A stretch of 64,000 nucleotides of DNA from an uncultured Coriobacteriaceae bacterium. GTDB lineage: Bacteria > Actinomycetota > Coriobacteriia > Coriobacteriales > Eggerthellaceae. Position 1 is the stretch's first letter; the number at the start of each line of letters is the position of its first letter. Of this stretch, positions 865-59,730 are shown one piece after another. The notes beneath the pieces are model-generated. The model was not told the origin of the DNA and searched no databases. It saw nothing but the letters and a program-made list of their open reading frames with translations. The stretch covers positions 1 to 64,000 of the forward strand of contig CACXMZ010000008.1 of the NCBI GenBank assembly GCA_902768975.1, read 5' to 3'. The translations under genes were made by a program, and so were the position numbers.

Positions 865-982
865 CCAAGTGCCAACGGTGAAGGCATAATGAATACTGCG
901 TGTAGCATTCGTGAACATTTTAGGGAAATCCCCTATGCGCTTTGTGAGGCTACGCACATACGGACTTCAAAAAGGGGGAATC

Positions 983-1428: not shown

Positions 1429-2865
1429 ATGGGTAGACCGACAATTTTTCCAACAGGTACAACCATCTACTACCCCGACAAGTGCGAAAACGGTTACACA
1501 CTGTTCTGCGCTGAGGACCATGGTGTTGTCCTCATCAACATGAACGGCAAAATCGTTCGTACTTGGAAGGAATTCGGCGGCTTCCCCGCCAAGATGATTC
1601 CTGGTGGCTACGTATTTGGTAGCTTGGAAATCCGCGCACCTCAGGACGGTTACCAGGACCAGGCCGACGTTACCATGCTCGACTGGGAAGGCAACGTTCT
1701 CTGGACCTTTGACCACAACGAGGAAGTCGAAGATCCCGACAAGCCAAAGCGTTGGATGGCTCGCCAGCATCATGAATATCAGATTGAAGGCAATCCGGTT
1801 GGTTATTGGGTACCTGGCATGGAATCCAGCCCCGACTTCCAGAAGATGCTCATTCTGGTTCACAAGGACCGCCCCGATCTCCCTGAAATTTCGCTGCACA
1901 ACCTGCTCGATGACCGTCTGATCGAAATCGACCGTGAAGGCAACATCCTTTGGGAGTGGAGCCTGCTTGACCACTTCGATCAGTTCAACCTGTCCGAAGA
2001 AATCAAGAACGTCATGTTCAGGAACCCGAACATGCAGCCTTGCGGCCCGAAGGGTCAGGGCGACATCTTCCACGTGAACTGCGCCAGCTACCTCGGCCCG
2101 AACAAGTGGTATGACGCCGGCGACGAGCGCTTCCATCCCGACAACATCATCATGGACTCCCGTGAATGCAACATTATGTGGATCCTTGACCACAAGACTG
2201 GCGACCTGGTATGGCAGGTTGGTCCGGACTTCACGGCTACTCCTGAACTCCGTATCTTCGGTACCATCGTTGGCCCGCATCACACCCATATGATCCCGAA
2301 GGGTCTGCCGGGCGAAGGCAACATCATGGTGTACGACAACGGTGGTTGGGCTGGCTACGGTGCTCCGAACCAGCACTCCAAGCAGGGCCTGAAGGTTACC
2401 CGCCGCGACTCTTCCCGCGTTGTGGAATTCGACCCGAATACCCTCGAAATCGTTTGGGAATGCGTTGGCGAGCCCGTCGGTGTTGGTGGCGGCTTCAACT
2501 TCAACGGCAACTACTTCTACAGCCCGTTGACCTCCGACGCACAGCGTCTGCCGAACGGCAACACGCTCATCTGCGAAGGCTGCTCCGCAAAGATCATGGA
2601 ATACACCGCCGACAACAAGCTGGTTTGGGAATACATCTTCCCCGATGTAGGTTCCTACCTGCTGTATCGTGCTTATCGTATTCCTTACGACTGGGTACCC
2701 CAGCTTGAAAAGCCCGAAGAAGTCGAGATTCCTCGCATCAAGCTCGGTGAACTCGTTCTTGAAGGTTCCTACAAGACCGACTATGACGAGACCGGCGTAA
2801 CCGTTGAAGGTGCTGACGCATTTAAGTACAAGCTTGCTGAATGCGTAACCGACCTCGACGACTAG
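1429..2865 (+). CDS. Arylsulfate sulfotransferase-like protein, copy 1 (cytoplasmic form)
   Basis: The 478 residues form the repeated W-rich blades of a six-bladed propeller of the ASST (PAPS-independent arylsulfotransferase) family. Family-type segments include IMVYDNGG, RDSSRVVEF, YSPLTSDAQRLPNGNTLI and a His cluster HHTHMIP. Known ASST enzymes move a sulfuryl group from a phenolic sulfate to another phenol through a sulfohistidine. There is no N-terminal signal peptide, unlike periplasmic AssT of E. coli. It is very similar to the 480-residue copy at 5902-7344. A DASS-type anion transporter gene follows, suggesting uptake of the sulfated substrate. Whether it is a true sulfotransferase or works on another sulfur compound cannot be told from sequence. 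Start chosen by the AGGAAAGAGAG site. Confidence 0.75.
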   Translation: MGRPTIFPTGTTIYYPDKCENGYTLFCAEDHGVVLINMNGKIVRTWKEFGGFPAKMIPGGYVFGSLEIRAPQDGYQDQADVTMLDWEGNVLWTFDHNEEVEDPDKPKRWMARQHHEYQIEGNPVGYWVPGMESSPDFQKMLILVHKDRPDLPEISLHNLLDDRLIEIDREGNILWEWSLLDHFDQFNLSEEIKNVMFRNPNMQPCGPKGQGDIFHVNCASYLGPNKWYDAGDERFHPDNIIMDSRECNIMWILDHKTGDLVWQVGPDFTATPELRIFGTIVGPHHTHMIPKGLPGEGNIMVYDNGGWAGYGAPNQHSKQGLKVTRRDSSRVVEFDPNTLEIVWECVGEPVGVGGGFNFNGNYFYSPLTSDAQRLPNGNTLICEGCSAKIMEYTADNKLVWEYIFPDVGSYLLYRAYRIPYDWVPQLEKPEEVEIPRIKLGELVLEGSYKTDYDETGVTVEGADAFKYKLAECVTDLDD

Positions 2866-3050: not shown

Positions 3051-4523
3051 ATGGCTGACGAAGTTAAAGTTGGTGGGATGAATATCGGTACCAAAGAAAT
3101 TATCTTTGCGATAATCACCCTCGCCATAGCGCTTTCTGGCTGGTTTATTCCCGCGCCAGAGCCAATGACTGAAATTGGTATGCGCTGCCTGACCGTCTTT
3201 GTTGCTATGGTAGTAGGGTGGACCTTGTCCGCTGGCGCATGGCCTTCGCTCATGGGCTTGCTCCTCTTCCCGGCAACAGGCGTATTTACATTCTCGGAAT
3301 TCCTGGGTACTGGTTGGGGTTCCGACACGCTGTTCTTCATGATCGCCGCCTTTGTTCTGGTGGGCTATCTGAAGGAAAGCGGCATTAGCCAGTGGATGGT
3401 TAACTGGCTTATGACCAGGAAGTTTTTGGAAGGGCACCCCTGGCGTCTGGTAACCATGATTTTGGTTGCAGCCTATATCATTTGCTCTCTCGTTAACTTC
3501 CTCGTGGGCTTGTTCCTTATGTGGGAAATCGTTTACGGTATTACCCGCAACATTGGTCAAAAGCCTTACGACAAGTTCCCGTCGCTTATGGTGTTCGGCA
3601 TTGCCATGCAGTGCGCATTCAGCTTGGTAACCTTCCCCTGGTCCATGAACGCTATCGCCAACCTTGGTGTATATGCAACGGTTACTGGTGAAGCTGCCAA
3701 CATGCTGCGCTACATGCTGTTCATGATTCCGTTTGGTGCTCTTGAAATTGCGGCTTACGTGCTTCTTTGCAAGTTCGTATTCCGTCTGGACGTAGGTCCC
3801 CTCAAGGGCGTAACCATGGACATGCTCAACCCCGAAGACAGCATTCTTACCCCCGACCGCAAGCGCGCTGGTCTGCTGCTTATCCTCTTTATCATCATGC
3901 TTCTTCTGCCCAGCTTCTTCCCGGCAGAAAGCGCCTTTAGGCAGTTCTATGGCCGCTTCGGCACCACGGGCATCATCGTGCTGTTCTTCGTTATTGCCTG
4001 CCTTATTTACACTAAGGACGGTCGCAAGGTAGTCGACTTCGCTAAGCTCGCTGCAACCAACGTACCGTGGAACATGGTACTCATGGTAGCGGTAATCTTG
4101 GCTATCGGCGCCTGCCTGCGTAGCGAACTGACGGGTATCGCCCCGTTCCTGGCTCAGAACATCGTTCCTATCATGACAAGCGTTCCTGGCATCGCTGCTA
4201 TTATCGTGTTCCTGTGCGTGGAAACTGTGCTCACCAACTTCCTCATTAACATGGTTGTTGTAGCAATGTTCCTGCCGGTGTTCATGCCTGCAGCTGCTGG
4301 CCTGGGCACAAGCCCCGAACTGCTTGCATTCCTGATCATGCTCACATCAACAAACGCCATCCTGACCCCTGCGGGTTGTGCGGCTGCAGCCATGCTGTTC
4401 CCGAACAAAGAGTGGATGCGCACCTCCGACATTTACAAGTATGGTGTTCCAACCGTTATCGTGAACATCGTTGTTCTGTTCGTGTGGTTCCTTATCTGCA
4501 ACATGACAGGTATTTGGGCCTAA
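3051..4523 (+). CDS. DASS/SLC13-family anion symporter 1
   Basis: The 490-residue membrane protein has about a dozen hydrophobic segments and two pseudo-symmetric halves, each ending in an SNT-like signature (VLTNFLINM near residue 395 and STNAILTPAG near residue 435). These are typical of divalent-anion sodium symporters. Family members carry sulfate, dicarboxylates, citrate or related anions, usually into the cell. It follows the ASST-like gene with a 185-nt leader containing two inverted repeats and ends at a strong terminator. Import of a sulfated or sulfonated anion for the neighbouring enzyme is the simplest idea, but the substrate is not deducible. The start has a purine-rich GAAAGAAAG site. 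Confidence 0.8.
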   Translation: MADEVKVGGMNIGTKEIIFAIITLAIALSGWFIPAPEPMTEIGMRCLTVFVAMVVGWTLSAGAWPSLMGLLLFPATGVFTFSEFLGTGWGSDTLFFMIAAFVLVGYLKESGISQWMVNWLMTRKFLEGHPWRLVTMILVAAYIICSLVNFLVGLFLMWEIVYGITRNIGQKPYDKFPSLMVFGIAMQCAFSLVTFPWSMNAIANLGVYATVTGEAANMLRYMLFMIPFGALEIAAYVLLCKFVFRLDVGPLKGVTMDMLNPEDSILTPDRKRAGLLLILFIIMLLLPSFFPAESAFRQFYGRFGTTGIIVLFFVIACLIYTKDGRKVVDFAKLAATNVPWNMVLMVAVILAIGACLRSELTGIAPFLAQNIVPIMTSVPGIAAIIVFLCVETVLTNFLINMVVVAMFLPVFMPAAAGLGTSPELLAFLIMLTSTNAILTPAGCAAAAMLFPNKEWMRTSDIYKYGVPTVIVNIVVLFVWFLICNMTGIWA

Positions 4524-5901: not shown

Positions 5902-7344
5902 ATGGGCAGACCAGATGTATTTCCCACTAGCACAACGGTGTATTATCCCGAAAAATGCTCCAACGGCTACACGCTGTTTACAGCTCCAAAAAAGGGCGTT
6001 GTGCTTATCAACATGAATGGTGAAATTGTCCGCTATTGGAAGGGTTTCGGCGGCTTTCCCGCCAAGATGATTCCGGGCGGTTATGTGCTGGGCAGTTTGG
6101 GCACGCGCGACGCTGCTGACGGCTATCAGGACGAAACCGACGTTACCATGCTCGACTGGGACGGCAACGTGGTGTGGTCATTCGACAAGAACGAAGAAAT
6201 CGAAGACCCCGACAAGCCCAAGCGCTGGATGGCTCGTGAACATCACGACTATCAGATGGAAGGCAACCCCGTTGGCTACTGGGTGCCCGGCATGGAAACC
6301 AGCCCCGACTTCCAGAAGATGCTTATCCTTGTTCATCGCGACGTGCGCAACCCTGAAATTTCCCCGCAGCTTTTGCTGGAAGACCGCCTCATCGAAGTCG
6401 ACCGCGAAGGCAACATCACCTGGGAATGGAACATGCTTGACTACTTCGACGACTTTAACCTCGACGAAACCATCAAGAACGCCATGTTCCGCAACCCCAA
6501 CACCCAGCCCACTGGTCCCGAAGGCCAGGGCGACATCTTCCACGTGAACTGCGCCAGCTACCTCGGACCCAACAAGTGGTACGACGCTGGCGACGAACGC
6601 TTCAAGCCAGACAACATCATCATGGACAGCCGCGAAGCTAACATCATGTGGATTATCGACCACGAAACTGGTCACGTGGTGTGGCAGGTTGGTCCGGACT
6701 TTACCGCTACTCCTGAACTTCGCATCTTTGGCACCATCGTTGGTCCGCACCATACGCACATGATCCCGAAGGGTCTGCCAGGCGAAGGCAACATCATGGT
6801 TTATGACAATGGTGGCTGGGCTGGCTATGGTGCTCCGAACCAGTTCTCCAAGATTGGCCTCAAGGTTACCCGCCGTGACTCTTCCCGCGTTGTTGAATTC
6901 GATCCCACCACGCTCGAAATTGTGTGGGAATGCAAGGGCCTTGCCAAGAATTCTGCAGGCGGCTTCGACTTCAATGGCAACTACTTCTACAGCCCGCTTA
7001 CTTCGAGCGCCCAGCGCATGCCTAACGGCAATACGGTTATCTGCGAAGGCTGCTCCGCCAAGCTGATGGAATTTACTCCTGAAGGCGAACTGGTTTGGGA
7101 ATATATGTTCCCCGAAGTGGGCGACCTGTTGCTCTACCGCTGCTACCGCATTCCTTACGAATGGGTTCCCCAACTTGGTCCACAGAACGAAGTGGAAATC
7201 CCCCTAACGGACAACACTCAGTTCGTGCTGGAGGGCGCATTCAAGAGCGACTACGAAACTAATGCGGTTGAAGTTTCGGGTGCAAATGCATTCAGCACCG
7301 ACATGGACGAATGCGTAACCGACATCGACCAAGGTTCGAAGTAG
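5902..7344 (+). CDS. Arylsulfate sulfotransferase-like protein, copy 2 (cytoplasmic form)
   Basis: The 480-residue paralogue of the protein at 1429-2865 is nearly collinear with it, including the MGRP start, the HHTHMIPKGLPGEGNIMVYD segment and the ICEGCSAK motif. The largest differences are in the last 60 residues and around position 340. It has no signal peptide or membrane segment. It follows the divergent regulator region and is followed by a second DASS-type transporter, so the enzyme-transporter unit is duplicated. The two copies may serve different donor or acceptor molecules. Cys27 of copy 1 is absent here, so any disulfide involving it would not be conserved. The start has GAAAGGA upstream. 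Confidence 0.75.
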   Translation: MGRPDVFPTSTTVYYPEKCSNGYTLFTAPKKGVVLINMNGEIVRYWKGFGGFPAKMIPGGYVLGSLGTRDAADGYQDETDVTMLDWDGNVVWSFDKNEEIEDPDKPKRWMAREHHDYQMEGNPVGYWVPGMETSPDFQKMLILVHRDVRNPEISPQLLLEDRLIEVDREGNITWEWNMLDYFDDFNLDETIKNAMFRNPNTQPTGPEGQGDIFHVNCASYLGPNKWYDAGDERFKPDNIIMDSREANIMWIIDHETGHVVWQVGPDFTATPELRIFGTIVGPHHTHMIPKGLPGEGNIMVYDNGGWAGYGAPNQFSKIGLKVTRRDSSRVVEFDPTTLEIVWECKGLAKNSAGGFDFNGNYFYSPLTSSAQRMPNGNTVICEGCSAKLMEFTPEGELVWEYMFPEVGDLLLYRCYRIPYEWVPQLGPQNEVEIPLTDNTQFVLEGAFKSDYETNAVEVSGANAFSTDMDECVTDIDQGSK

Positions 7345-7411: not shown

Positions 7412-9067
7412 ATGAGTGATGCAGCAAACACTGGAGCTGCGCCGAAGAAGAAGATGAACCTGTATTGGATCCATATCGCCATTGGCGTTGTGGTCATGGT
7501 CCTCTTCTGCTTTGTGCTTCCAGCTCCTGACCCCATTACCCCCTTGGGTATGAAGGTCGTAGGCATCTTCTTGGCTATGGTGTATTGGTGGTCTTCCATC
7601 GAAGCGCTGTGGCCTTCCGTATTGGGCCTTGCCTTGCTGGGCCTTTCGGGTATTGGCGACGCGGTACTTGGCGCTAACTTTGCCGGTACCATGGCAAATG
7701 GATCCATTCCTCTGATGGGCGCTGTTCTCCAGGACGGCACCGTTATCGAAGGTCTGAGGTCTCAGCCTATCGCCCAGAACCTAGCTGGGTCTAACGGCGT
7801 ATGGATGACAGCAGTTGGTAACTACACCGTACTGCTGACCCTGTTCGCAATGATCCTCTTTGGTGCTGTGGACGAAGTCGGCGACACCATGTACATTGCG
7901 AAGTGGTTCCTGACTCGCAAGATTTTTGCGGGCCGCCCCTTCGTATTCTGGGCAATCTTCTACATTGCCTGTTTCGTGCTTTCCACCATCGTTTCGCCTA
8001 TCACCGGCCTTATTATCATGTGGCCCGTGGCCCTGCGTTTGGTTGAAATCATGGGCATTACCAAGGAAGACCGCGTTTGGAAGTTCTTCTTCGTGGGCAT
8101 GTTCTTGGTTATGACGCTTGGCCAGCCCTTCTGGCCCTTCATGGGCGCTCAGCTGATCCCCATCAGCGCCTTTAGCACCATGACGGCCACCATGGCTGAA
8201 GCTGGCACCCTGCCTGCACCTCTGGCCATTCCGTGGGTACCTTACATGATCGTGAACGCTGTTATGACTGCGTTCATCATGGCTATCTACCTGCTTGCCA
8301 TGAAGTTCGTTCTTCGCGTTGACGTTTCCAAGATGAAGTCCGTTAATCCGCAGATGGTTGAAGAAACGCTTCCTCTGCCCCCTATGGACCTGCGTCAGAA
8401 GGCATTCCTGTTCATGATCCCGGTATACCTGATCTGCCTGCTGCTTCCCGACTTCGTGTCTGGCAACCCCGTTTCCGACACGCTGAAGTATCTGGGCCCG
8501 CTGGGCATCACCGCATTCTTCGTGGCTGCGTTCCTTATCGCACGCTGGGAAGGCAAGTCCATGCTGGACTTCCGCGAGGTTAGCTACAAGCAGTTTAACT
8601 GGGGCATCTTCTTCATGATCGCTGCTGCCGTGTACGCCGCTGGTCTACTGTCCAGCCCTGTTACTGGCGTTTCCGCGTTCCTGGTTCAGGTTCTTACCCC
8701 CATCCTGGGCGGTCAGCCTGAAATGGTATTTGTTGCCCTTATGCTTCTGGTTGCTCTTATCATCACGAACTTTGCTAACAACGCAGCTATGGCCGTTGTG
8801 CTTCTGCCCGTTGTTATCCAGTTCTCCAACCAGATTGGCATCAGCCCGGTACCGGTTGCCATGGGCGTTATCCTGATGGTCTTCGTCGCCATGCTCACCC
8901 CTGCAGCTTCCCCGCATGCTGGCATGATGCACGGCAACAAGAACATCTACAAGACGGGCGACATTCTGGCTATCGGCTTCCCGATGTGTATCATCGCCTG
9001 GCTCAGCTACACCTTCGTAGGTTACCCGCTGGCCAAGGCCCTGTGTGCCGCCTTTGGTGTTATCTAG
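7412..9067 (+). CDS. DASS/SLC13-family anion symporter 2
   Basis: The 551-residue membrane protein follows ASST copy 2 with a GAAGGAG site. Hydrophobic segments and SNT-like regions (ITNFANNAAMAVVLLP and LTPAASPHAGMMHGN) place it in the DASS/SodiT superfamily. It is only distantly similar to the 490-residue carrier at 3051-4523. It carries an insert of about 60 residues after the second helix (residues 85-140). The two carriers therefore probably differ in substrate although both serve ASST-like enzymes. It ends at a terminator shared in part with cassette 1. Direction and ion coupling cannot be seen. Confidence 0.8.
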   Translation: MSDAANTGAAPKKKMNLYWIHIAIGVVVMVLFCFVLPAPDPITPLGMKVVGIFLAMVYWWSSIEALWPSVLGLALLGLSGIGDAVLGANFAGTMANGSIPLMGAVLQDGTVIEGLRSQPIAQNLAGSNGVWMTAVGNYTVLLTLFAMILFGAVDEVGDTMYIAKWFLTRKIFAGRPFVFWAIFYIACFVLSTIVSPITGLIIMWPVALRLVEIMGITKEDRVWKFFFVGMFLVMTLGQPFWPFMGAQLIPISAFSTMTATMAEAGTLPAPLAIPWVPYMIVNAVMTAFIMAIYLLAMKFVLRVDVSKMKSVNPQMVEETLPLPPMDLRQKAFLFMIPVYLICLLLPDFVSGNPVSDTLKYLGPLGITAFFVAAFLIARWEGKSMLDFREVSYKQFNWGIFFMIAAAVYAAGLLSSPVTGVSAFLVQVLTPILGGQPEMVFVALMLLVALIITNFANNAAMAVVLLPVVIQFSNQIGISPVPVAMGVILMVFVAMLTPAASPHAGMMHGNKNIYKTGDILAIGFPMCIIAWLSYTFVGYPLAKALCAAFGVI

Positions 9068-12400: not shown

Positions 12401-12497
12401 GTAAATAGGCGTGTTTTACCCTGTAAATCAGGAGGTTAGTGTTCATTTTTCCCCGTTGAAAAAGAGCGCTCTTGTGACACAGCTGGAAGGGGGCCCT

Positions 12498-13370: not shown

Positions 13371-13373
13371 ATT

Positions 13374-15436: not shown

Positions 15437-16621
15437 ATGGCTGAAGTAGGGAAGACCCCTCTGCTCGACGAGCTAGAAAACGGCCCATGGCCAAGCTTTG
15501 TTAAAGAAATAAAGCGTGCGGCCGAAAAGAACGAAATGAGCAAAGACCTTCTGGGTCAGCTCGAGCGTTCGTACGAAGAAAAGATTGGTCACTGGAAGCA
15601 TGGCGGCATCGTTGGTGTTAAGGGCTATGGCGGCGGTGTTATCGGCCGTTATTCAGACCTGCCGGACGAATTTCCCGCACTGCGCGAATTCCATACCATG
15701 CGTGTTGCTGCACCCAGCGGCTGGTTCTATAAGACCGACACGCTGCGCACCATCTGCGACATTTGGGAGCGCCACGGTTCTGGCCTCACCAACATGCATG
15801 GTTCTACGGGCGACATCATTTTGCTCGGTATGACCACCGAAGAACTTCAGCCAACTTATGACGAATTTGCCGAGCAGGGCATGGACCTGGGTGGTTCCGG
15901 TTCCGACCTTCGCTCGCCTAGCTGCTGCGTAGGCCCCGCTCGCTGCGAGCATGCCTGCTACGACACCTTGGATGCCTGCTTCGACATTACCAACGAATTC
16001 CAGGACGAACTGCATCGTCCCATGTGGCCTTACAAGTCCAAGATCAAGTTCGCTGGTTGCGCCAACGACTGCGTTGCCGCTCAGGCCCGCGCCGACATTT
16101 CGGTCGTAGGTACCTGGCGCGACGCCATTCAGGTGGACCAAGCCGCTGTTGCTGAATATGCCGACGGTGGCCTGAACATTCAGAAGTATGTCGTGGACAA
16201 GTGCCCCACGGGCTGCATGGCCTTCGACGCTGAAAAGAAGGAACTGACCATCGACAATCCCGAGTGCTCCCGTTGCATGCACTGCATCAACGTTATGGGC
16301 AAGGCTCTCAAGATTGGCAAGGAACGCGGCGCTACCATCATGATCGGCGCTAAGTCCACCATCGTGAAGTCAGCCTTTATGTCTTGGGTGCTCGTTCCCT
16401 TCATGCCCATGGAAGCTCCTTACGACGAATTCAAAGAGCTTTGTAATGAAATTTGGGACTGGTGGGACGAAAACGGCAAGACGCGCGAGCGCCTGGGTGA
16501 AACCATTTATCGCCTCGGCATGGGCAAGTTCCTGCGCGACCTTGGTATCGAAGCGGTTCCGCAAATGGTTTACAAGCCACGTTCGAACCCCTATGTATTC
16601 TGGCAACCAGAAGACTTCTAG
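15437..16621 (+). CDS. dsrA: Dissimilatory sulfite reductase alpha subunit
   Basis: The 394-residue protein has the DsrA order: N-terminal sulfite-reductase ferredoxin-like half, the siroheme/[4Fe-4S] region with [12 protein letters not shown] and GCANDC, and an inserted ferredoxin domain with CPTGC and ECSRCMHC. It forms the alpha2beta2 enzyme with DsrB that reduces sulfite on siroheme in the cytoplasm, handing sulfur to DsrC. It is somewhat shorter than the roughly 435 residues of Desulfovibrio DsrA. The GGAGGAGAG site decides the start. The locus has dsrD and lacks dsrEFH, which fits the reductive rather than the sulfur-oxidising type. Confidence 0.95.
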
Positions 16622-16636
16622 TACTGAAAAACCGCA

Positions 16637-16650
16637 ACTGCAATTGCAGT
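16637..16650. repeat. Perfect 14-bp palindrome between dsrA and dsrB
   Basis: ACTGCAATTGCAGT is self-complementary and sits in the short dsrA-dsrB gap. It may fold in the mRNA as a processing or stability element. Confidence 0.45.
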
Positions 16651-16681
16651 GTGCTTGACTTAAGAAAACGAGGTGAACAAA

Positions 16682-17737
16682 GTGGCTTTAACAGACCAGG
16701 GCCCCATCGATTATAAGGAGAATATTCCTCCTATTATTCAAGAGAACTACGGCAAGTGGGAATACCACGAGTACCCCCGTCCCGGCGTGCTGAAGCATGT
16801 TGGTCCTGCGGGTGCTCTGTATTCCATTCGCGTGGGTACGCCCCGCCTGCTGGCCGTCGACTCCATTCGCGACTTCTGCGAATTGGCCGACAAGTATTGC
16901 GACGGCTACCTGCGCTTTACCACGCGCCAGAATGTTGAATTCCTTACTACCAAGGAAGAAAACATCGAACCCATTATCAATGAAGTGAACGAACTGGGTT
17001 ATTCCGTTGGTGGTACGCACAACTCCATGTCGAGTATCGTGCACACCCAGGGTTGGGTACACTGCCACACTCCAGCAACCGACGCTTCGGGCATCGTGAA
17101 GGTGGTCATGGACGACCTGCATGAATTCTTCGTTGAAGACAAGCTGCCCAACAAGCTTCACATTGCCATGGCTTGCTGCCTGAACATGTGCGGCGCTGCC
17201 CACTGCTCCGACATCGCCATTGTTGGCGTGCATCGTACCGCTCCGCGTATGGACCATGACACCATTCGTCGTACGACTGAAATTCCTTCGCTCGTGGCCT
17301 GCTGCCCGACGGGTGCTATTCGCCCTGATCCGACGGAAAAGAGCGTTAAGGTTGTTGAAGAAAAGTGCATGTATTGCGGCAACTGCTACACCATGTCGCC
17401 CGGTATGCACATCCTCGACGCTGAAAACGACGGTATTGCCATCATGGTTGGTGGTAAGGTTGCTAACGCTCGTAGCAATCCGGAATTCAGCCGCATGGTT
17501 ATTCCGTTCTTGCCTAACACGGCTCCGCATTGGCCCGAAACCGTGGCTGCTATCCGCAACATTGTTGAATGCTGGATCGAAGGCGCGGAACCTGGCGAGC
17601 GTTTGGGTGAATGGATCAACCGCATTGGTTGGGAACGCTTCTTCAGCGTGACGGGCATTCCGTTCAACGACAAGCTCATCGACGACTATATCTTCTCGCG
17701 CGAATCGTTCCGTACGTCCGCTGCGTTTAAGATGTAA
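16682..17737 (+). CDS. dsrB: Dissimilatory sulfite reductase beta subunit
   Basis: The 351-residue partner of DsrA carries the siroheme-cluster segment [13 protein letters not shown] and the ferredoxin motif CMYCGNC. GTG 16682 is preferred because GAGGTGA lies five bases upstream; the longer GTG at 16673 has no such site. Many DsrB proteins read CYTMCP after the cluster motif; here it is CYTMSP, and from memory that cysteine is not a required ligand. It follows dsrA by 60 nt and is translated from the same mRNA. The short length compared with Desulfovibrio matches the short DsrA. Confidence 0.95.
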
Positions 17738-18732: not shown

Positions 18733-19230
18733 GTGGCATCCGCTTCCACGATAGAATCTATAGCTTCGCAATGGAAGGTCTTAATCGACCCACTCGTGGG
18801 CGACCAAGCCTTTTCCGAAAATGTTGCAGCGGGGCGCTTTCATAACCCCGCGGCTTACCATGTTCACAATGCTGCGCAGGCCGTTGTTGCCTATGTGCTT
18901 GAAGGCGAAGGCGAAGAAGCAGCCTTCACTGAACTTGACGACCTGGCTCGGATTATTGCCCTGCGCGTAAGTGCCCCTTCTGCTTCGTTTGCGTGTTTCT
19001 TTGAGCTTCGTACGCTCATAATCCAAGAACTGGGCAGCGCGGAATATCACCGCGTTGCGAAAGACGTAAACGGCCGACTCAATGCTTGTATTTTGCACGC
19101 GTTCGACGCGTATGTTGAAGCTCGCGAAAAGCTGAGCTCGATTGCAAATAACGAATTGAAGAAGAGGAACGAAATGCTTGAAAAGCTTGCATATGGTTCC
19201 AGCGCCAGGGAAGGGGGTGCGCTGTCGTGA
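18733..19230 (+). CDS. RsbRD N-terminal domain-like protein before dsrM
   Basis: The 165-residue, helical protein starts at GTG 18733 behind AAGGGGG. The pattern (helix bundle with FHNPAAY, LDDLARIIALRVS, AKDVNGRLNACILHAF) resembles the RsbR/RsbRD N-terminal globin-like domain, which in stress-response systems senses signals. Genes of this type are found next to dsrMKJOP in other sulfite reducers (family knowledge). The stop TGA overlaps the dsrM start as GTGA, so the two are translationally coupled. It may sense redox state or help assemble the complex. No heme-binding residue can be assigned. Confidence 0.65.
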   Translation: MASASTIESIASQWKVLIDPLVGDQAFSENVAAGRFHNPAAYHVHNAAQAVVAYVLEGEGEEAAFTELDDLARIIALRVSAPSASFACFFELRTLIIQELGSAEYHRVAKDVNGRLNACILHAFDAYVEAREKLSSIANNELKKRNEMLEKLAYGSSAREGGALS

Positions 19231-20303
19231 GAATAGTTGGTCCTATTATTGCGGTGTGCGCACTTGCCGGAATTGCCTGGCTTGGAACTGGCCCGCTTTC
19301 GCTGTATACGCTCTTTGGGGTTATTATTCCCTATTGCGCGTTTGCTGCTTTTGTCGTGGGCTTTATTATCCGCATTCTTAACTGGGGCCGTTCTGCGGTT
19401 CCATTCCGTATTCCCACCACGGCTGGCCAAGAAAAGAGCCTACCGTGGATCAAGCAAAACAAGCTGGACAATCCGTCTTCGAAGGCGGGCGTTGTGGGCA
19501 GGATGGCCCTGGAAGTACTGTTCTTTCGTTCGCTGTTCCGCAATGCTTCAACCGAAAAAACTGAAGATGGTATTGCCATTGGTTCGGCCAAATGGCTCTG
19601 GCTGTTTGCGCTTATTTTCCACTGGTCCATGCTCATTATTGTGCTGCGCCATTTCCGTTTGTTCCTCGATCCTATTCCGGCGTGGATTACTGCCCTTGAA
19701 GGCCTCGACGGCATGTTCCAAATTGGCCTGCCTGTAATCTACCTTACGGACCTGGGCATCGTGGCGGGTATTACCTTCCTGTTCATTCGCCGCGTAGTGG
19801 TGCCGCGCATCCGCTATATTTCGCAAACAATCGACTACTTCCCCCTGGTGCTTTTGTTCGGTATTGCCCTGGCTGGCATTATCATGCGTTACTTCACCAA
19901 GGTGGACATGTCGGCGGTTAAGGAACTTACGCTGGGGCTCGTACGCTTTACGCCCCAGGCAACAGTTACTGAACCCATTTTCTATATCCACATTTTCCTG
20001 GTGTGCTGCTTGCTGGTGTATTTCCCCTGGTCAAAGCTTATGCACGCGGGCGGCATTTTCCTTTCGCCCACGCGCAATATGGCCAACAACAGCCGCGCTG
20101 TGCGCCATGTGAACCCCTGGAACTACGAAGTCAAGAAGCATACCTACGAAGAGTACGAAAACGAAAACTGGGAAAAGATGCAAGCACTCGGTTTGCCGCT
20201 TGACTACGAACACGTAAAAGAAGAAGAGCCGCCCGCGGAAGCGGAAGCAGGTGCCGCAGAAGGCGCCCCAGAAGCGGCCAACACGGAAGATTCGGAGGGT
20301 TAG
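19227..20303 (+). CDS. dsrM: DsrM, membrane cytochrome b of the DsrMKJOP complex
   Basis: The 358-residue protein has about six helices with paired histidines (ALIFHWSMLIIVLRHFRLF, YIHIFLVC, KLMHAGG) suited to two b hemes, as in NarI-like proteins. The last 60 residues are soluble, acidic and Ala/Glu-rich. DsrM links menaquinol to the cytoplasmic DsrK. It starts at GTG 19227, overlapping the stop of the previous gene, and is followed two bases after its stop by dsrK. Gene order M-K-J-O-P is exactly that of other sulfite and sulfate reducers. Confidence 0.9.
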   Translation: MRIVGPIIAVCALAGIAWLGTGPLSLYTLFGVIIPYCAFAAFVVGFIIRILNWGRSAVPFRIPTTAGQEKSLPWIKQNKLDNPSSKAGVVGRMALEVLFFRSLFRNASTEKTEDGIAIGSAKWLWLFALIFHWSMLIIVLRHFRLFLDPIPAWITALEGLDGMFQIGLPVIYLTDLGIVAGITFLFIRRVVVPRIRYISQTIDYFPLVLLFGIALAGIIMRYFTKVDMSAVKELTLGLVRFTPQATVTEPIFYIHIFLVCCLLVYFPWSKLMHAGGIFLSPTRNMANNSRAVRHVNPWNYEVKKHTYEEYENENWEKMQALGLPLDYEHVKEEEPPAEAEAGAAEGAPEAANTEDSEG

Positions 20304-20305
20304 TT

Positions 20306-21976
20306 ATGGCTAAGTTACCGAATCGCACAGAAATGCTGGACTTCGATTTTTCCCTTCCACCTGAAGGTTGGATGGACACCAAGACCGAATTCAAAGACGG
20401 TATGTTCTGCCATGCGGTTAAGCCCGAAAAGCTTGAAACCGTCGGTATGCCGAATGCACACAAGTGGTCGGCGTCCGACGAAGACTGGGGCCTGCCCGAA
20501 AACTGGAAGGAAATTATCCTCCAGGGCATGGCGGACCGCCTTGAAAAGTACCGCTCGTTCAAGCTGTTCATGGACGTGTGTGTGCGCTGTGGCGCCTGTG
20601 CAGACAAGTGCCACTTCTATATGGGTACGGGCGACCCGAAGAACATGCCCGTGCTGCGCGCCGAATTGCTTCGTTCGGTGTATAAGCGCTACTTCACCCG
20701 CGCAGGCCGCATGTTTGGCAGCCTGGTGGGTGCGCGTGACTTAACTGAAGACGTTATTAAAGAGTGGTGGTACTACTTCTACCAGTGCACGGAATGCCGT
20801 CGCTGTTCGGCCTTCTGCCCCTATGGCATCGACCAGGCAGAAATTACCATCATGGGCCGCGAACTTTTGAACCTGCTCGGTTTGAACACCGACTGGATCG
20901 CCGGGCCCGTTGAAAACTGCTACATGCGTGGCAACCACGTGGGCCTTACCCCGCCCGCCATTTTGGACAACGTTGAATTCATGATGGACGACCTGGAAAC
21001 GGTCACGGGCCACCATTTCGAACCAAGCTTTAATCGCAAGGGTGCCGAAATCCTGCTCGTGTGCCCGTCGGGCGACCTGTTTGCCGAACCGGGCACCTTT
21101 ACCTTCATGGGCTACATCATGTTGCTCGAACATCTGGGCTTGGACTACACGCTTTCCACTTATGCTTCGGAAGGCGGTAACTTCGGCTTCTTTACCAGCA
21201 ACGAAATGGCCAAGCGCCTGAATTCCAAGATCTACGCCGAAGCGGAGCGCCTGGGCGTGAAGTGGATTCTGGGCGGCGAGTGCGGCCACATGTGGCGTCT
21301 CATGCAGCAATACATGGACACCTGGAATGGTCCGGCCGACTTCCTCGAACAGCCCGTTTCGCCCATTACGGGTACCGTGTTTGAAAATGCGGCATCCACC
21401 AAGATGGTGCACATGGTTGAATTCACGGCCGACCTCATCTACAACAAGAAAATCAAGCTCGACCCGTCTCGTAACGACGACTGGGTTGTTACCTTCCACG
21501 ACTCCTGCAATACGGCACGCGGTATGGGCATTCTGGAAGAGCCGCGCTACATTATCAAGAACGTGTGCAACCACTTCTACGAAATGCCCGACGAAACCAT
21601 TCGCGAAAAGACGTTGTGCTGCGGCAGCGGTTCGGGCCTGAACGCAGGCGAAAACATGGAACTGCGTATGCGCGGCGGTTTCCCCCGTGCAGAAGCAGTG
21701 CGCAGTGTGGTTGACCGTTTCGGTGTGAACATGGTTGCCAACATTTGCGCTATCGACCGCGCAGCCATGCCAGCGCTCATGGACTACTGGAACCCTGGTG
21801 TCGGCATCGTGGGCACCCACGAACTGGTGGGTAACGCCCTCGTGCTGGACGAAAACGACCATCGCACCATGAACCTGCGCCAGGAAGAACTTCCCAGCGC
21901 GCGCAAGGAAAAGGAAATCGCGGATGCGGTGGCTGCTGTTAACGGCCCCGAAAACGGAGAGGGGGGAGCAGCCTAA
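20306..21976 (+). CDS. dsrK: DsrK, HdrD-like catalytic subunit of DsrMKJOP
   Basis: The 556-residue cytoplasmic iron-sulfur protein has two ferredoxin motifs (CVRCGACADKCHFY near residue 93 and CTECRRCSAFCPYG near residue 160) and a CCG-type domain (HDSCNTARG, LCCGSGSG). The last element reads CAIDRA rather than CxxC, unlike the related protein at 13374-14978, which has CAPCSNC. DsrK is thought to reduce the trisulfide of DsrC with electrons from DsrM and DsrP. It sits directly between dsrM and dsrJ. The C-terminal 60 residues are acidic and poorly conserved. Confidence 0.9.
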   Translation: MAKLPNRTEMLDFDFSLPPEGWMDTKTEFKDGMFCHAVKPEKLETVGMPNAHKWSASDEDWGLPENWKEIILQGMADRLEKYRSFKLFMDVCVRCGACADKCHFYMGTGDPKNMPVLRAELLRSVYKRYFTRAGRMFGSLVGARDLTEDVIKEWWYYFYQCTECRRCSAFCPYGIDQAEITIMGRELLNLLGLNTDWIAGPVENCYMRGNHVGLTPPAILDNVEFMMDDLETVTGHHFEPSFNRKGAEILLVCPSGDLFAEPGTFTFMGYIMLLEHLGLDYTLSTYASEGGNFGFFTSNEMAKRLNSKIYAEAERLGVKWILGGECGHMWRLMQQYMDTWNGPADFLEQPVSPITGTVFENAASTKMVHMVEFTADLIYNKKIKLDPSRNDDWVVTFHDSCNTARGMGILEEPRYIIKNVCNHFYEMPDETIREKTLCCGSGSGLNAGENMELRMRGGFPRAEAVRSVVDRFGVNMVANICAIDRAAMPALMDYWNPGVGIVGTHELVGNALVLDENDHRTMNLRQEELPSARKEKEIADAVAAVNGPENGEGGAA

Positions 21977-22432
21977 ATGAAAAAGACAGGAATCATAGCC
22001 TTCGTCGTTATTTTCTGTGCGCTCGCACTTCTTCCGTTTGCGGCAAACGCAATCAGCCCGAAGGCTCCGCTGGAACTGGATTACAACACGCCAGCTATCA
22101 AATCTCTTGAAGAACACAAGTGCATTGAAAGCACGGAATTCATGAGGTCGTCCCACATGCAGCTGCTTGATTCGTGGCGCAACGACGTGGTGCGCAATGG
22201 CGATATCGTCTATACCGCAACCGACGGCACGAAGTACGAAAAGAGCCTCGACGACAGTTGTCTCACATGCCATTCCAATCCGGAAGAATTCTGTGACAAG
22301 TGCCATAGCTATGAAGGGGTCAATCCCTATTGCTGGGACTGCCACGACTCCTTTGGACTGTGGCGCCAAAACGAATCGAACGAAGCTTTGTATCAAGACT
22401 TCTTGGCTTCTGTTGAAGGGGGGCAGGAATAA
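21977..22432 (+). CDS. dsrJ: DsrJ, triheme cytochrome c
   Basis: The 151-residue protein has an N-terminal hydrophobic segment ending FAANA, which can serve as signal or anchor, and three CxxCH heme motifs: CLTCH, CDKCH and CWDCH. An extra cysteine (HKCIES) occupies the place of the unusual axial Cys ligand known from DsrJ. It works outside the membrane with DsrO and DsrP. The ATG follows the dsrK stop without a gap, and its own stop overlaps the dsrO start (TAATG). A membrane-anchored location is expected because the organism appears to be Gram-positive. Confidence 0.9.
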   Translation: MKKTGIIAFVVIFCALALLPFAANAISPKAPLELDYNTPAIKSLEEHKCIESTEFMRSSHMQLLDSWRNDVVRNGDIVYTATDGTKYEKSLDDSCLTCHSNPEEFCDKCHSYEGVNPYCWDCHDSFGLWRQNESNEALYQDFLASVEGGQE

Positions 22433-23328
22433 TGACTGCACAACAGCATTCTGAACGCTCCCTGACCAGGCGCAATTTTGTAAAGGCAGGCGCCGTCGCT
22501 TGCGCAACGGGCTTGTTTGCCCTGAATGGCTGCACGCTGGAAGAAGTGAAGAACAGCCAGCTGGCGTCCGAATTCCAGGGCATCGAAAACAAGCAGTATG
22601 GCCTTGCTATTAACGTTAGTATGCTTGACGCTTTGGGCGGCCAGGAATTTATCGACACCATTATTGCGGCATGTCACAACTACCATAACGTGCCCAAGAT
22701 TGACGACCCGAAGAAGTCCATGGACTGGATCTGGACGCAAAGCTACGAAGAAGCTTTCAGCGACATTGCCAGCACCTACGTGGACGAAAAAACGGCGTCG
22801 TACGCCTACCCGGTTATGTGCAACCACTGCACCGACCCGCAGTGTGTGCGTGTGTGCCCCACGCAGACCACCTTCAAGCGCCCCGACGGCATTGTGATGA
22901 TGGACTATCATCGCTGCATCGGTTGCCGCTTCTGCATGTCGGCCTGCCCCTATGGTGCGCGTAGCTTTAACTTCATGGATCCGCGCCCCTATGTGGAAAA
23001 GGAAAGCATGAATCCTGGCTATCCCACGCGCAGTAAAGGCGTCGTGGAAAAGTGCACCCTGTGCTACGAACTTATCGACCAGGGCTCCGTGCCGGTATGC
23101 GTGCAAGCAGCCTATGGTTGCATCACCTTCGGCGACCTGACCGACGAAAACAGCGAAATCCGCCAGGTGCTTTCCCAGGCCTTCTCCATCCGCCGCAGGG
23201 TGGAATTGGGTACGGGCCCGAATGTGTATTACATCTTCGACGAAGAAACGGCTTCCCTTTATGCCAACGGCCTCAACCTTGGTGGGGCACACGGCTTCGA
23301 AGGCGACCTTCTGGAAGGGGGTGAGTAG
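22432..23328 (+). CDS. dsrO: DsrO, Tat-exported iron-sulfur protein (probable lipoprotein)
   Basis: The 298-residue protein begins with a twin-arginine signal (LTRRNFVKAG) followed by a lipobox-like LNGC, so it should be folded, exported by Tat and lipid-anchored. It has ferredoxin motifs CNHCTDPQCVRVCP, CIGCRFCMSACPYG and CTLCYELI with later cysteines, for about three to four [4Fe-4S] clusters. In the DsrMKJOP complex it links DsrJ to DsrP. It overlaps dsrJ by one base and lies two bases before dsrP. The tat genes at 53914-55453 could supply the export machinery. Confidence 0.9.
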   Translation: MTAQQHSERSLTRRNFVKAGAVACATGLFALNGCTLEEVKNSQLASEFQGIENKQYGLAINVSMLDALGGQEFIDTIIAACHNYHNVPKIDDPKKSMDWIWTQSYEEAFSDIASTYVDEKTASYAYPVMCNHCTDPQCVRVCPTQTTFKRPDGIVMMDYHRCIGCRFCMSACPYGARSFNFMDPRPYVEKESMNPGYPTRSKGVVEKCTLCYELIDQGSVPVCVQAAYGCITFGDLTDENSEIRQVLSQAFSIRRRVELGTGPNVYYIFDEETASLYANGLNLGGAHGFEGDLLEGGE

Positions 23329-23330
23329 GC

Positions 23331-24818
23331 ATGCTAGAAAAGGTATTCAAGGGTTCTAAGCTCTATTACGGCTGGCTGCTTGCCCTGTTGGTACTTATTG
23401 GGGCTGGCGTGCTGGCCTACATCAACCAGCTGGTGAACGGCCTTCAGTTAACCGGCATGAGTCAAGACGTAAACTGGGGCCTATATATTGCGCAGTTTAC
23501 CTTCTTTGTAGGCGTGGCTGCTTCGGGCGTTATGGTGGCCATTCCGCTCTACCTGCACGACTATAAAGAATACGGCCCCGTTATTATCTTTGGTGAATTC
23601 ATGGCTGTGGCAGCCGTGCTCGTAGCCCTGCTCAATGTTGTTGTTGACGTTGGTTACCCAGCCCGCCTCTTTAACGTGGTTTTGTATCCCACGCCCCATT
23701 CAATCTTGTTCTGGGACATGGTGGTGCTTTCCAGTTATTTGCTCGTGAACATTATTATTGGGTGGACGTCCATTGCGGCTGAACGCAAGGGTACCAAGCC
23801 TGCCCACTGGGTGCACGTGCTGGCTATTATTGCCATTCCGCTGGCCATTAGCATCCATACAGTTACCGCCTTTATTTACTGCGGTAACGTGGGCCGCCCC
23901 TTCTGGGCAAGCGCTATTGTGGCCTGCCGCTTCCTGGCTTCTGCTTTTGCGGCTGGTCCTGCCTTGCTGCTGCTCATTTCTTTCATCATGGGCAAGTTTA
24001 CGGACTATAAGATTTCGGACAAAGCGGTAGACACCATCGCCAAGACCGTGGCCTACGCCATTCTTGCGAATGTGTTCTTCTTCCTGCTTGAAGTGTTCAC
24101 GGCCTTCTATGGCAACAGCCCCCACCACACCGAACCGCTGGCTTACATCCTGTTTGGTGTGCATGGCCACAACCAGCTCGTGCCCTTCATGTGGGCCGCT
24201 GCCGTGCTTATTGTTATTGGCATTGTTATTCTGCTGGTGAAGAAATGGCGTCAGACCCGTGGGTTGCTTATTATTGCGCTACTGTGCATCTTCCTGGGCT
24301 GCTGGATGGACAAAGGCATCAACTTCGTGTTGGCTGGCTTTGTGCCCAACAGTTTCGGCGAAATCATTGACTATGTTCCGCACCCCAATGAAATCATGGT
24401 CATTGTGGGCACCTTTGCTATTGGCGCTTTCGTGCTTACCTTGCTGTTTAAGGTTGCGCTGGCGGTGCGCGAAGGTATTGCCCAGCCCGCAGCGGTGGCT
24501 TTCTCTGAAGCTACGCGCGCAGCAGCCGAAAACCAAAAGGCTGCCGAAATGGAAGAAGCCGTTGAAGCTGCCAAGGCTGAAAAGGCTGCGCGTGAAGCTG
24601 AAGAGGCCCGTATAGCGGCCGAAGAAGAAGCGCGCCGCAAAGCCGAAGAAGAGGCTGCTAAGGCTGCCGAAGAAGCCGCTAAGGCAGCAGAAGAAGCTGC
24701 GGCCGCGGCAGAAGAAGCCGCCGAAGCACCGGCAACGGAAGTGGCAGAAGCAGCGGAAGAAGCTGCACCAGAAGCGGCAGAAGAGGCCGCCCCGGCTGCA
24801 GAAGAGGCAGCCGAATAA
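23331..24818 (+). CDS. dsrP: DsrP, NrfD/PsrC-type quinone-reactive membrane subunit with long acidic tail
   Basis: Residues 1-380 form about ten helices of the NrfD family, which exchange electrons with quinone and pair with DsrO-type ferredoxins. The remaining 110 residues are a low-complexity, charged Ala/Glu/Lys coiled coil of EEAAKAAEEA-type heptads, not present in ordinary DsrP proteins. This tail would face the cytoplasm and might bind other subunits. Similar acidic tails occur on DsrM, TatA and TatC in this window. The repetitive codons (GCA/GAA) suggest growth by slippage. The gene follows dsrO by two bases. Confidence 0.85.
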   Translation: MLEKVFKGSKLYYGWLLALLVLIGAGVLAYINQLVNGLQLTGMSQDVNWGLYIAQFTFFVGVAASGVMVAIPLYLHDYKEYGPVIIFGEFMAVAAVLVALLNVVVDVGYPARLFNVVLYPTPHSILFWDMVVLSSYLLVNIIIGWTSIAAERKGTKPAHWVHVLAIIAIPLAISIHTVTAFIYCGNVGRPFWASAIVACRFLASAFAAGPALLLLISFIMGKFTDYKISDKAVDTIAKTVAYAILANVFFFLLEVFTAFYGNSPHHTEPLAYILFGVHGHNQLVPFMWAAAVLIVIGIVILLVKKWRQTRGLLIIALLCIFLGCWMDKGINFVLAGFVPNSFGEIIDYVPHPNEIMVIVGTFAIGAFVLTLLFKVALAVREGIAQPAAVAFSEATRAAAENQKAAEMEEAVEAAKAEKAAREAEEARIAAEEEARRKAEEEAAKAAEEAAKAAEEAAAAAEEAAEAPATEVAEAAEEAAPEAAEEAAPAAEEAAE

Positions 24819-24892: not shown

Positions 24893-25207
24893 ATGGCAAC
24901 ATTACAAGTAGGCGATCGCGCTCTGGAACTCGACGAAGACGGCTTTTTGGAAGACGCAAGCCAGTGGGACGAAGAAGTAGCTCACAAGCTGGCTGAAACC
25001 GAAGAAGTTGAACTGACCGACAAGCACTGGGAGATTATCAACTATCTGCGCCAGTACTATGCCGACTTCGGTACTGCCCCCATGGTGCGCAAGATGCTCA
25101 AGGACACCGGCCTTTCCAACGCCGAAATCTACGAACTCTTCCCCAGCGGCCCGGGCAAGGGAGCTTGCAAGATTGCTGGTCTCATGAAGCCGACTGGCTG
25201 CGTGTAA
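24893..25207 (+). CDS. dsrC: DsrC, sulfur-carrier protein and DsrAB partner
   Basis: The 104-residue protein ends in the DsrC swinging arm with both essential cysteines: the inner one in GKGACKIAG and the penultimate Cys in TGCV. The core (FLEDASQWDEEVAHKLAETE and LTDKHWEIINYLR) matches the family. DsrC receives the sulfur of sulfite from DsrAB as a trisulfide, which DsrMK then reduces. A strong AAAAGGAG site precedes it. It lies between its own candidate promoter and a 9-bp hairpin, so it is likely made at a high level and partly uncoupled from dsrN. Confidence 0.95.
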   Translation: MATLQVGDRALELDEDGFLEDASQWDEEVAHKLAETEEVELTDKHWEIINYLRQYYADFGTAPMVRKMLKDTGLSNAEIYELFPSGPGKGACKIAGLMKPTGCV

Positions 25208-25282: not shown

Positions 25283-27664
25283 ATGGACGGGACACACCTC
25301 GCTTATCCGCGAGTCATGATTGCTGCGCTCTACGGCAAATGTGGTAAGACGGTTATTACGTCGGGTATTGCGCGGGCACTTAAAAATCGGGGCCTCAGTG
25401 TTCAGCCTTATAAAAAAGGGCCGGACTATATCGATCCAGGCTGGCATTCTCTTGCTTCAGGTAAGGCAAGCCGCACCTTGGACAGCTTTTTCATGACGCA
25501 GCAAGACATGAACGCGGTGCTTTGCGAAGCGGCCCGTTCGGCTAACATTGGCATCATCGAAGGCGCCATGGGTTTTTACGACGGATCGGACTTGCAGGGT
25601 AGCAGCTCTTCTGCCGAAGTGGCCAAGCAAACGTCCACGCCCGTCATCCTTGTCCTGGATGTTACTCGCATGACGCGCACGACCGCAGCACTTGTGCTGG
25701 GCTGCATTCATTTCGACCCCCATGTGCACATTGCAGGCGTTATTGCGAACCGTGTGGGTAATCCGCGCCATGAAGCACGCCTGCGTGAAACTATCGAACA
25801 CTATTGCGGTATTCCTGTTATTGGGGCTATTCCTAACGACGACCGCATGAAGTTGGCAGACAGGCATCTGGGCTTGGTTACTGCTATAGAAACACAAACG
25901 GCCGACGAATTCCTCGATGGCGTGGCAGAGGCTATCGAAGAGTACGTCGACTTAGATATGTTCCTGCATATTGCAGGTAAGGCCGACCCCATTCCTGTTG
26001 CCCAGATTGAATATCCGCAGGCGCCTAAACTTGCGGCGTCGGGCGAAGACCCTGTGACCATTGCCGTCATGCGCGACAAGTCCTTTTCGTTCTACTATCA
26101 GGAAAACTTTGACGCGCTGGAAGCGGCAGGTGCAAAGCTGGTCTTTGTTGACAGCATGAAGGACAAGGAGGTCCCGCCCGAGGCAGACGGCCTTTATATT
26201 GGCGGAGGCTTCCCCGAGGTGTTTGCCGAACAACTTACTCAGAACGCTGCTATGCGCGAAAGCGTAAAGGCACGTATCGAGGATGGTATTGCCTGTTGTG
26301 CCGAATGCGGGGGCCTGATGTACTTGGGCAAGGACATGCTTATTGATGGCAAGAGCTATGACATGGCGGGCGTCTTCGACTTCACCATAGAGATGATGAA
26401 AAAGCGCCAGGGCCATGGTTATGCGGTAGCAGTGGCAACTAACAGCCATCCTTGGTTTGAACCAGGTGTTGCCATTAATGGGCATGAACACCACCATTCG
26501 CGCGTCATTGACCATGGCAACACGCAACAATTTGCCTATGACGATACGCGTGGCAATGGCGTAGGCAATAAGCACGACGGCTATGTTGCGGGGCGTTGCG
26601 TAGCGTCTTATATACATACCAATGCAATTTCAACTCCCCAGTGGGCGACCGCATTGGTCGATGCCGCTTATGATTATCGAAATACCAAGGAGAAGGGGGT
26701 AGGCATGGCTAATCAGACAGACGAGTATTTTGATTTGGTTATCATTGGGGCAGGCCCCGCAGGTCTTACGGCTGGTATTTATGGCGGGCGTGCGCTGCTC
26801 AAAACGGTCATCCTGGAAAAGGGAAGCATTGGCGGGCGCGTTACGTCGACCAACGAAATTGTGAACTACCCTTCCGCGGGCGAAACTACTGGTCCTGCGC
26901 TCATGGAAAAGATGGAAGAACATGCCCGCACGTTTGGCGTGGAAATTCGCAACCAGGGCGTGCGCAGCGTGGACTTTTCGGGTGTGGACAAGATTGTCAC
27001 TACGCGTAAGGTTATCTATCATGCCAAGGCTGTTATTGTCGCTACTGGTACGCGCCCCAAAATCATTGGCTTCCCCGGTGAAACCGAATTCACGGGCCGC
27101 GGCGTAAGCTATTGCGCCACCTGCGACGCTGAATTCTACGCTGGCCAGGACGTGGTGGTTATTGGCTGCGGCGACCAAGCGGTGGAAGAAAGCCAGTTCA
27201 TCACCAAGTTTGCCGACCACGTTACCATCGTGTCGCGCCGCAAGGACGGCGACATGTCCTGCAACGCCATCGCTAAAGAGCGCTGCATGAAGAATCCCAA
27301 GATTTCCGTGCGCTTCAACAGCCAAATTGTGGAAGTCTTTGGCGAAGACGAAGTTGAAGGCGTGGTGTTGGAAGATACGCGCACGGGCGAACGCGAGAAA
27401 GTTCCCTGCCAGGGCGTATTTTTCTTCACGGGTAGCGACCCTGAAACGGAAATCCTTGAAGGGCAGGTCGGCTTTGAAGACGGCTTGGGTAAGGACGAAA
27501 AGGGTTGGTTGCATACGGGCGACAACATGGAACTTGCACCCGGCGTGTTTGCCGCAGGCGACGTGCGCGCCAAGTATCTGCGCCAGATTGCGACTGCCGT
27601 TGGTGACGGCGCAGCTGCTGCCACCGCCGCCGAACGCTACATCAGCGAACTCGAAAGCGAATAA
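25283..27664 (+). CDS. dsrN: DsrN siroheme amidase fused to thioredoxin reductase
   Basis: Residues 1-474 are a CbiA/CobB-type ATP-dependent amidotransferase: P-loop GKCGKT, GIIEGAMGFYDG, and a glutamine amidotransferase half with CAECGG. This is the DsrN type that amidates siroheme for DsrAB. Residues 475-793 are a complete NADPH thioredoxin reductase: GAGPAGLTAG, the redox motif CATC in GVSYCATCDAEF, and GDVRAKYLRQ. The join keeps the hallmark of a separate gene: AAGGAGAAGGGGG and an in-frame ATG at 26705 starting MANQTDEYFDLVIIGAG. Both a fusion and a free TrxB could therefore be made. Possible clients are the two small Trx-like proteins or DsrC (inference). Transcription ends before a palindromic repeat. 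Confidence 0.85.
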   Translation: MDGTHLAYPRVMIAALYGKCGKTVITSGIARALKNRGLSVQPYKKGPDYIDPGWHSLASGKASRTLDSFFMTQQDMNAVLCEAARSANIGIIEGAMGFYDGSDLQGSSSSAEVAKQTSTPVILVLDVTRMTRTTAALVLGCIHFDPHVHIAGVIANRVGNPRHEARLRETIEHYCGIPVIGAIPNDDRMKLADRHLGLVTAIETQTADEFLDGVAEAIEEYVDLDMFLHIAGKADPIPVAQIEYPQAPKLAASGEDPVTIAVMRDKSFSFYYQENFDALEAAGAKLVFVDSMKDKEVPPEADGLYIGGGFPEVFAEQLTQNAAMRESVKARIEDGIACCAECGGLMYLGKDMLIDGKSYDMAGVFDFTIEMMKKRQGHGYAVAVATNSHPWFEPGVAINGHEHHHSRVIDHGNTQQFAYDDTRGNGVGNKHDGYVAGRCVASYIHTNAISTPQWATALVDAAYDYRNTKEKGVGMANQTDEYFDLVIIGAGPAGLTAGIYGGRALLKTVILEKGSIGGRVTSTNEIVNYPSAGETTGPALMEKMEEHARTFGVEIRNQGVRSVDFSGVDKIVTTRKVIYHAKAVIVATGTRPKIIGFPGETEFTGRGVSYCATCDAEFYAGQDVVVIGCGDQAVEESQFITKFADHVTIVSRRKDGDMSCNAIAKERCMKNPKISVRFNSQIVEVFGEDEVEGVVLEDTRTGEREKVPCQGVFFFTGSDPETEILEGQVGFEDGLGKDEKGWLHTGDNMELAPGVFAAGDVRAKYLRQIATAVGDGAAAATAAERYISELESE

Positions 27665-59510: not shown

Positions 59511-59564
59511 GTGTTAAAGCGGGGGGTAGTGCCTTTTCCGCAGCTTTAGGCGAGCGTAGGAAAT

Positions 59565-59670: not shown

Positions 59671-59730
59671 TTTCCGTTAAACGCGAGTCCTAAATCTATT
59701 TTCCCGTAAAAGTAACGAGTATGTGAAGAT

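Follow-up and report, generated by a model that had tools for sequence, protein, structure and literature searches.

The 793-codon open frame that joins dsrN to trxB in an uncultured member of the Eggerthellaceae almost certainly consists of two ordinary operon genes that a single additional G at the stop codon of dsrN has placed in one frame, the G being either an assembly indel or a mutation of very recent date; TrxB can still be initiated from the trxB start codon. The reductase itself very probably belongs to a set with thioredoxin (Trx)-like proteins of odd CxxC motif and arylsulfate sulfotransferase (ASST) homologues, all encoded 16 to 26 kb upstream. That explanation as a whole, comprising the joined frame, membership in the set, and the route to sulfite proposed below, falls, in our judgement, just short of being probable. 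Positions are those of the window, the whole 64,000-nucleotide stretch analyzed (contig CACXMZ010000008.1, positions 1 to 64,000). The features at the junction are the following.

25283..26704, + strand: dsrN, CobB/CbiA-type amidase (siroheme amidase by context); TIGR00379 with 469 bits over residues 10 to 462, PF07685, PF01656; directly after dsrC
26687..26704, + strand: Shine-Dalgarno-like AAGGAGAAGGGGG and spacer to trxB; read from the sequence, near-identical in congener G004
26695..26699, + strand: G5 run holding the extra G that joins both genes; G004 has G4 and then TAG
26705..27664, + strand: trxB-like flavoprotein with CATC and an altered NADPH motif; homology and profile matches, nested among ASST-linked TrxBs in the tree

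ORF analysis of the window gave a single frame from 25283 to 27664 (+) in which dsrN and trxB are read through, and profile and homology matches divide its product into residues 10 to 462, which resemble CobB/CbiA-type a,c-diamide synthases, and residues 480 to 791, which resemble thioredoxin reductases. AAGGAGAAGGGGG itself lies at 26687 to 26699, and the trxB ATG is at 26705; these elements, like the frame length and the CATC of the reductase half, are as the preliminary description of the locus had given them. The junction reads AAGGAGAAGGGGG-TAGGCATG in the window versus AAGGAGAAGGGG-TAG-GC-ATG, with one G fewer, in G004. The frame is open because of the fifth G at 26695 to 26699, and if this G is removed, the TAG now spanning 26700 to 26702 is the dsrN stop. 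In G004, dsrN ends in GGG-TAG and the trxB ATG follows two bases on, so that there are two separate genes, and in the congener G002, a TAG likewise terminates dsrN, 24 bases ahead of the trxB ATG. Over 25936 to 27664 (∼1.7 kb), the window and G004 are 92% identical, and the extra G is the sole indel. A search with the whole 793-residue protein in 138 genomes of the family and 398 of the class found a full-length open match only in the window's own genome (G000), which rules out the fusion as a trait of a lineage. The separate genes in both congeners and this unique match indicate that dsrN and trxB were neighbors with their own starts and stops and that one G removed the stop. The preliminary description had likewise suggested a former operon that lost a stop codon and kept the old trxB start; this is borne out by the separate genes of the congeners and by the lack of any other full-length open fusion among the 398 class genomes, with the refinement that the stop was lost through a +1 frameshift within a run of G, with no point change involved, and in this assembly only. 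Programmed frameshifting or slippage at the junction is unlikely in our judgement, given how short the G4 and G5 runs are and that the relatives simply have a stop followed by ATG.

Whether the extra G exists in the organism concerns the joined frame only. We consider it somewhat probable that it is an assembly or sequencing error and that the genome truly has two separate genes, a reading compatible with our overall explanation: the change is a single-base homopolymer difference restricted to this assembly, and its removal restores the ancestral arrangement. Against an error, no other uncompensated indel was noticed in the well-aligned dsr coding stretches, and with 96% completeness and 10 contigs the assembly appears to be of good quality. 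The window contains 58 runs of five G or C (34 G5 and 24 C5) and no other broken gene was noticed, indicating that homopolymer error is not rampant; one error per genome would still be easily possible. The intact look of the remaining window genes despite these runs, together with the open frame and the retained internal start, could also be taken to favor a real, working DsrN-TrxB fusion, in which DsrN would deliver amidated siroheme, the attached TrxB would give thiol electrons to DsrC/DsrAB, and internal initiation would yield free TrxB too. We regard such a fusion as highly improbable, since the genes are separate in both congeners and every other genome searched, most dsr-positive genomes lack TrxB at the threshold used (E ≤ 1e-85), and the event lies inside a block that differs from G004 at only 8 of 500 bases (26336 to 26835), so that the change, if real, is young. 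That one locus gives both a fusion and a free reductase, as had been proposed, is no more than possible. The fusion is either ordinary or an artifact and deserves little weight, and annotation as a bifunctional enzyme would mislead. The block at 26336 to 26835 is flanked on its dsrN side by 13 to 20 differences per 100 bases and looks like the result of recent interspecies recombination.

Upstream of the joined frame lies a complete reductive Dsr set (dsrAB, dsrMKJOP, and dsrC).

15437..17737, + strand: dsrA and dsrB; ORFs 15437 to 16621 and 16673 to 17737; dsrA homologues in 18 of 138 family genomes
19227..24818, + strand: dsrMKJOP; ORFs, NrfD and 4Fe-4S matches for dsrP and dsrO, synteny
24893..25207, + strand: dsrC with both C-terminal cysteines (GACKIAGLMKPTGCV); PF04358 and TIGR03342 over cut-off

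The first half of the joined frame carries CbiA and GATase_3 domains (PF01656, PF07685, TIGR00379) and follows dsrC directly, in the window as well as in the dsr clusters used for comparison; by this context it is DsrN, a putative siroheme amidase. A second DsrM/DsrK-like pair is found ahead of dsrAB at 12411 to 14978 and is also kept in G002. Elsewhere in the window, a related element of ∼140 bases occurs at two intergenic sites (27748 to 27887 and 59543 to 59681) and also in G002 and G004 contigs; the folP-folK frame at 32661 to 34241 contains a low-complexity, repeat-like insert of ∼100 residues around 33100 to 33400, which reads as repeated DNA within coding sequence; and a single 804-codon frame at 47747 to 50161 appears to join TsaB-, RimI-, and TsaD-like parts.

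The window TrxB shares with bacterial TrxB its fold, the FAD motifs (GxGPAG conserved in the alignment), and CATC but differs in two respects: it scores below the TIGR01292 equivalog cut-off (320.9 versus 343.45 bits), and the motif for the NADPH 2′-phosphate, HRRxxxR (HRRDxxRA), is replaced by SRRKDGDMSCN. Its ASST-linked relatives keep CATC and have V-x-HDEG-x-x-DCN where HRRxxxR is expected. In a maximum-likelihood tree, the window TrxB falls inside the ASST-linked clade, where its neighbors are Gordonibacter copies, and the housekeeping TrxB of the window's genus branches elsewhere. Its closest relatives in other Eggerthellaceae are 65 to 67% identical, and none lies beside dsrN. Unlike the window TrxB, relatives outside the genus (L031, L032, L056, and L057) extend ∼70 residues further at the C terminus, possibly by a degenerate Trx domain.

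The candidate partners of this TrxB and two anion transporters are encoded near the start of the window.

911..1303, + strand: Trx-like protein 1 (CHVC); PF00085, alignment
1429..2865, + strand: ASST homologue 1; PF05935, PF14269, alignment
3051..4523, + strand: DASS-type anion transporter 1; PF00939, TIGR00785 below cut-off
5902..7344, + strand: ASST homologue 2, with tail cysteine C471; PF05935, AlphaFold model, fold match to ASST and Cpz4
7412..9067, + strand: DASS-type anion transporter 2; PF00939
10690..11019, + strand: Trx-like protein 2 (CSVC); PF00085

Both Trx-like genes of odd CxxC that the preliminary description had called nearby thus exist, but they lie 16 to 26 kb upstream of trxB. 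Among the 138 family genomes, the reductase (called at E ≤ 1e-85) was found in 7, the Trx-like protein in 6, the ASST homologue in 8, and dsrA in 18, the first three being nested in the dsrA-positive genomes except for G004, which has the reductase and no dsrA match, yet is 81% complete and carries dsrM to dsrN on its contigs. Trx-like protein and ASST are both present in six of the seven TrxB genomes, the exception being 81% complete, and all three share the same four genera. Counted by genus, the reductase and ASST occur together in 4 of 48 genera, each of them one of the 10 dsr genera, in a test that ignores phylogeny; dsrA is present in all eight ASST-positive genomes (genus-level Fisher P value of 0.001, likewise ignoring phylogeny). 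Conversely, the reductase is absent at this threshold from 12 of the 18 dsrA-positive genomes, two of which (Gordonibacter pamelaeae type) are likely to have a more divergent copy; in three family genomes the reductase lies beside the Trx-like gene and ASST, far from dsr. These absences and loci rule out TrxB as a general dsr gene, and they do not support the earlier idea that it is tied to the siroheme amidase. Of the dedicated thiol-electron line for sulfite reduction proposed at the same time, the thiol-disulfide line with the odd Trx-like proteins stands, but the line appears to serve ASST, whose action probably precedes sulfite reduction. In two of the family's ASST genomes, a Trx domain is fused to the C terminus of ASST.

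The set of TrxB, odd-CxxC thioredoxin, and cytoplasmic ASST homologue recurs across Bacillota and Actinomycetota; it is conserved and apparently undescribed. A locus scan with one genome per species yielded 79 named ASST loci, at 22 of which no more than 3.5 kb separates ASST from a TrxB of the window type (Lachnospiraceae, Clostridium, Pediococcus, Vagococcus, Gordonibacter, and others). At six loci (Gordonibacter pamelaeae, Blautia parvula, two from Pediococcus, one from Vagococcus, and one from a Ruminococcus), ASST and Trx are fused, and TrxB is directly upstream in every case. Many ASST loci have no TrxB or Trx nearby, and a general thioredoxin would have to serve there. A siroheme reductase domain was found in 15 of 21 genomes with the set, so a sulfite reductase is not a constant companion; the remaining six, which include the isolates Pediococcus acidilactici and Vagococcus acidifermentans, had no such domain, and there sulfite would need to leave the cell or to be a final product. 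A 317-residue siroheme protein of Blautia parvula stayed below all cut-offs. In two other species, asrA, asrB, and asrC come after the TrxB-Trx-ASST-LysR genes, directly after the set in L084 (1.1 kb from the end of ASST) and within 7 kb in L083 (6.3 kb). There, asrA and asrC are over cut-off in both species and asrB in L083, to whose copy that of L084 is 94% identical. An Erysipelotrichaceae locus (L101:923-3481) encodes an 852-residue protein with CoA-disulfide-reductase-like and sulfite-reductase-like parts, ∼3 kb from a TrxB-Trx-ASST set.

TrxB and the Trx-like proteins might, instead of serving ASST, reduce the disulfide or trisulfide of DsrC or another Dsr partner directly, with ASST as a bystander. 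The gene order in some genomes would fit this, as trxB closes the dsr operon in three congeners, and in G046 the reductase comes first in the dsr cluster (with ASST last). We nevertheless consider this reading improbable: DsrMKJOP, which reduces DsrC in sulfate reducers, is fully present, organisms lacking dsr carry this TrxB-Trx-ASST set as well, and the set stands away from dsr in the three family genomes mentioned above.

The assignment of the ASST homologue rests on PF05935 (68.3 bits versus a cut-off of 24.2) and on its AlphaFold-predicted structure, which matches the fold of Streptomyces Cpz4 (9KF6; Z of 32.8) and E. coli ASST (3ETS; Z of 23.1); the beta-propeller fold and PF05935 are shared with both (3ELQ/3ETS and 9KF6). 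H214, H283, and H286 are invariant across the ASST homologues aligned. The catalytic histidines of E. coli ASST include His436, the one that is sulfated. C471 is present in 78 of 81 ASST sequences, in a Cys-Val pair, whereas most other columns of the C-terminal tail vary; in the model it sits in a low-confidence tail. A disulfide switch formed by several conserved cysteines is disfavored, since C471 alone is conserved among six cysteine columns. E. coli ASST is a periplasmic enzyme with a disulfide-forming operon (DsbL/DsbI), whereas the window ASST has reductive Trx and TrxB partners and a conserved tail cysteine. An ASST-linked disulfide operon is also described in a study of Sutterella (PMC10932419).

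We tentatively propose, chiefly from gene content and conserved residues, that the set releases sulfite reductively from sulfate esters. ASST would remove the sulfuryl group of an organic sulfate ester brought into the cell and hand it to the cysteine (C471) in its C-terminal tail; the Trx-like protein would resolve the S-sulfocysteine, releasing sulfite, and would be re-reduced by TrxB with NAD(P)H; the sulfite would go to DsrAB or, elsewhere, to Asr. The net reaction would be ROSO3− + NAD(P)H → ROH + sulfite and would need neither ATP sulfurylase nor APS reductase. Sulfite is suggested as the product because ASST occurs in the family only with dsrA, sulfate activation is missing, and asrABC lies by the set in two other species. 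aprA was over cut-off in none of the 138 family genomes, and no match to ATP sulfurylase (sopT) was found in the window's own genome. In PAPS reductase, the sulfuryl group is accepted by a cysteine located in a flexible C-terminal tail, and sulfite is then set free by thioredoxin. A set that combines sulfuryl transfer, a tail cysteine, and a dedicated thioredoxin with its reductase would resemble this chemistry, but PAPS/APS reductases (CysH) are a works-alike only: the fold of the window ASST is unrelated, and no nucleotide substrate is implied.

Alternatively, the Trx-like protein and TrxB might merely keep the tail cysteine reduced, ASST being an ordinary sulfotransferase that moves sulfate between phenols. 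The fold and family match agree with this, and one near-invariant cysteine might be a redox switch. Such upkeep seems somewhat less likely, however, as it leaves unexplained why the set is restricted to dsr genomes in the family and why asrABC adjoins it in L083 and L084, and the ASST-Trx fusion suggests a reaction step over occasional repair. Reductive sulfite release would extend to a broader proposal, which we put forward with more reserve: that ASST, Trx-like protein, and TrxB form a nucleotide-free sulfate-ester reductase that feeds Dsr or Asr in gut bacteria with NAD(P)H as the reductant and that, where fermenters lack a sulfite reductase, could serve on its own as an electron sink.

A literature search of incomplete coverage found no paper linking the window type of ASST with thioredoxin reductase; ASST plus thioredoxin returned only Dsb-related or unrelated papers. 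The Sutterella study, the only paper retrieved on the genes around gut ASSTs, concerns homologues that, as at the set loci, often have LysR genes nearby, but it reports no recognizable operons and no thioredoxin link, and it calls organosulfate reduction not established (PMC10932419). A 2023 survey of dsrAB genomes notes that gut Coriobacteriia (Gordonibacter, Rubneribacter, and Berryella) can reduce sulfite only, an activity that awaits experimental proof; it gives no source of the sulfite, and neither thioredoxin nor sulfotransferase appears in its text (PMC10591310). The window shares with those genomes dsrAB, dsrMKJOP, dsrC, and dsrN without sulfate activation, for the reduction of sulfite to sulfide, and adds the flanking ASST, Trx-like, and TrxB genes. 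The set bears on the question of where gut Coriobacteriia with dsrAB and no sulfate activation obtain their sulfite. If the proposed route is true, sulfate conjugates from host and diet, such as phenol, steroid, and drug sulfates, would become electron acceptors for these bacteria and a source of hydrogen sulfide in the gut.
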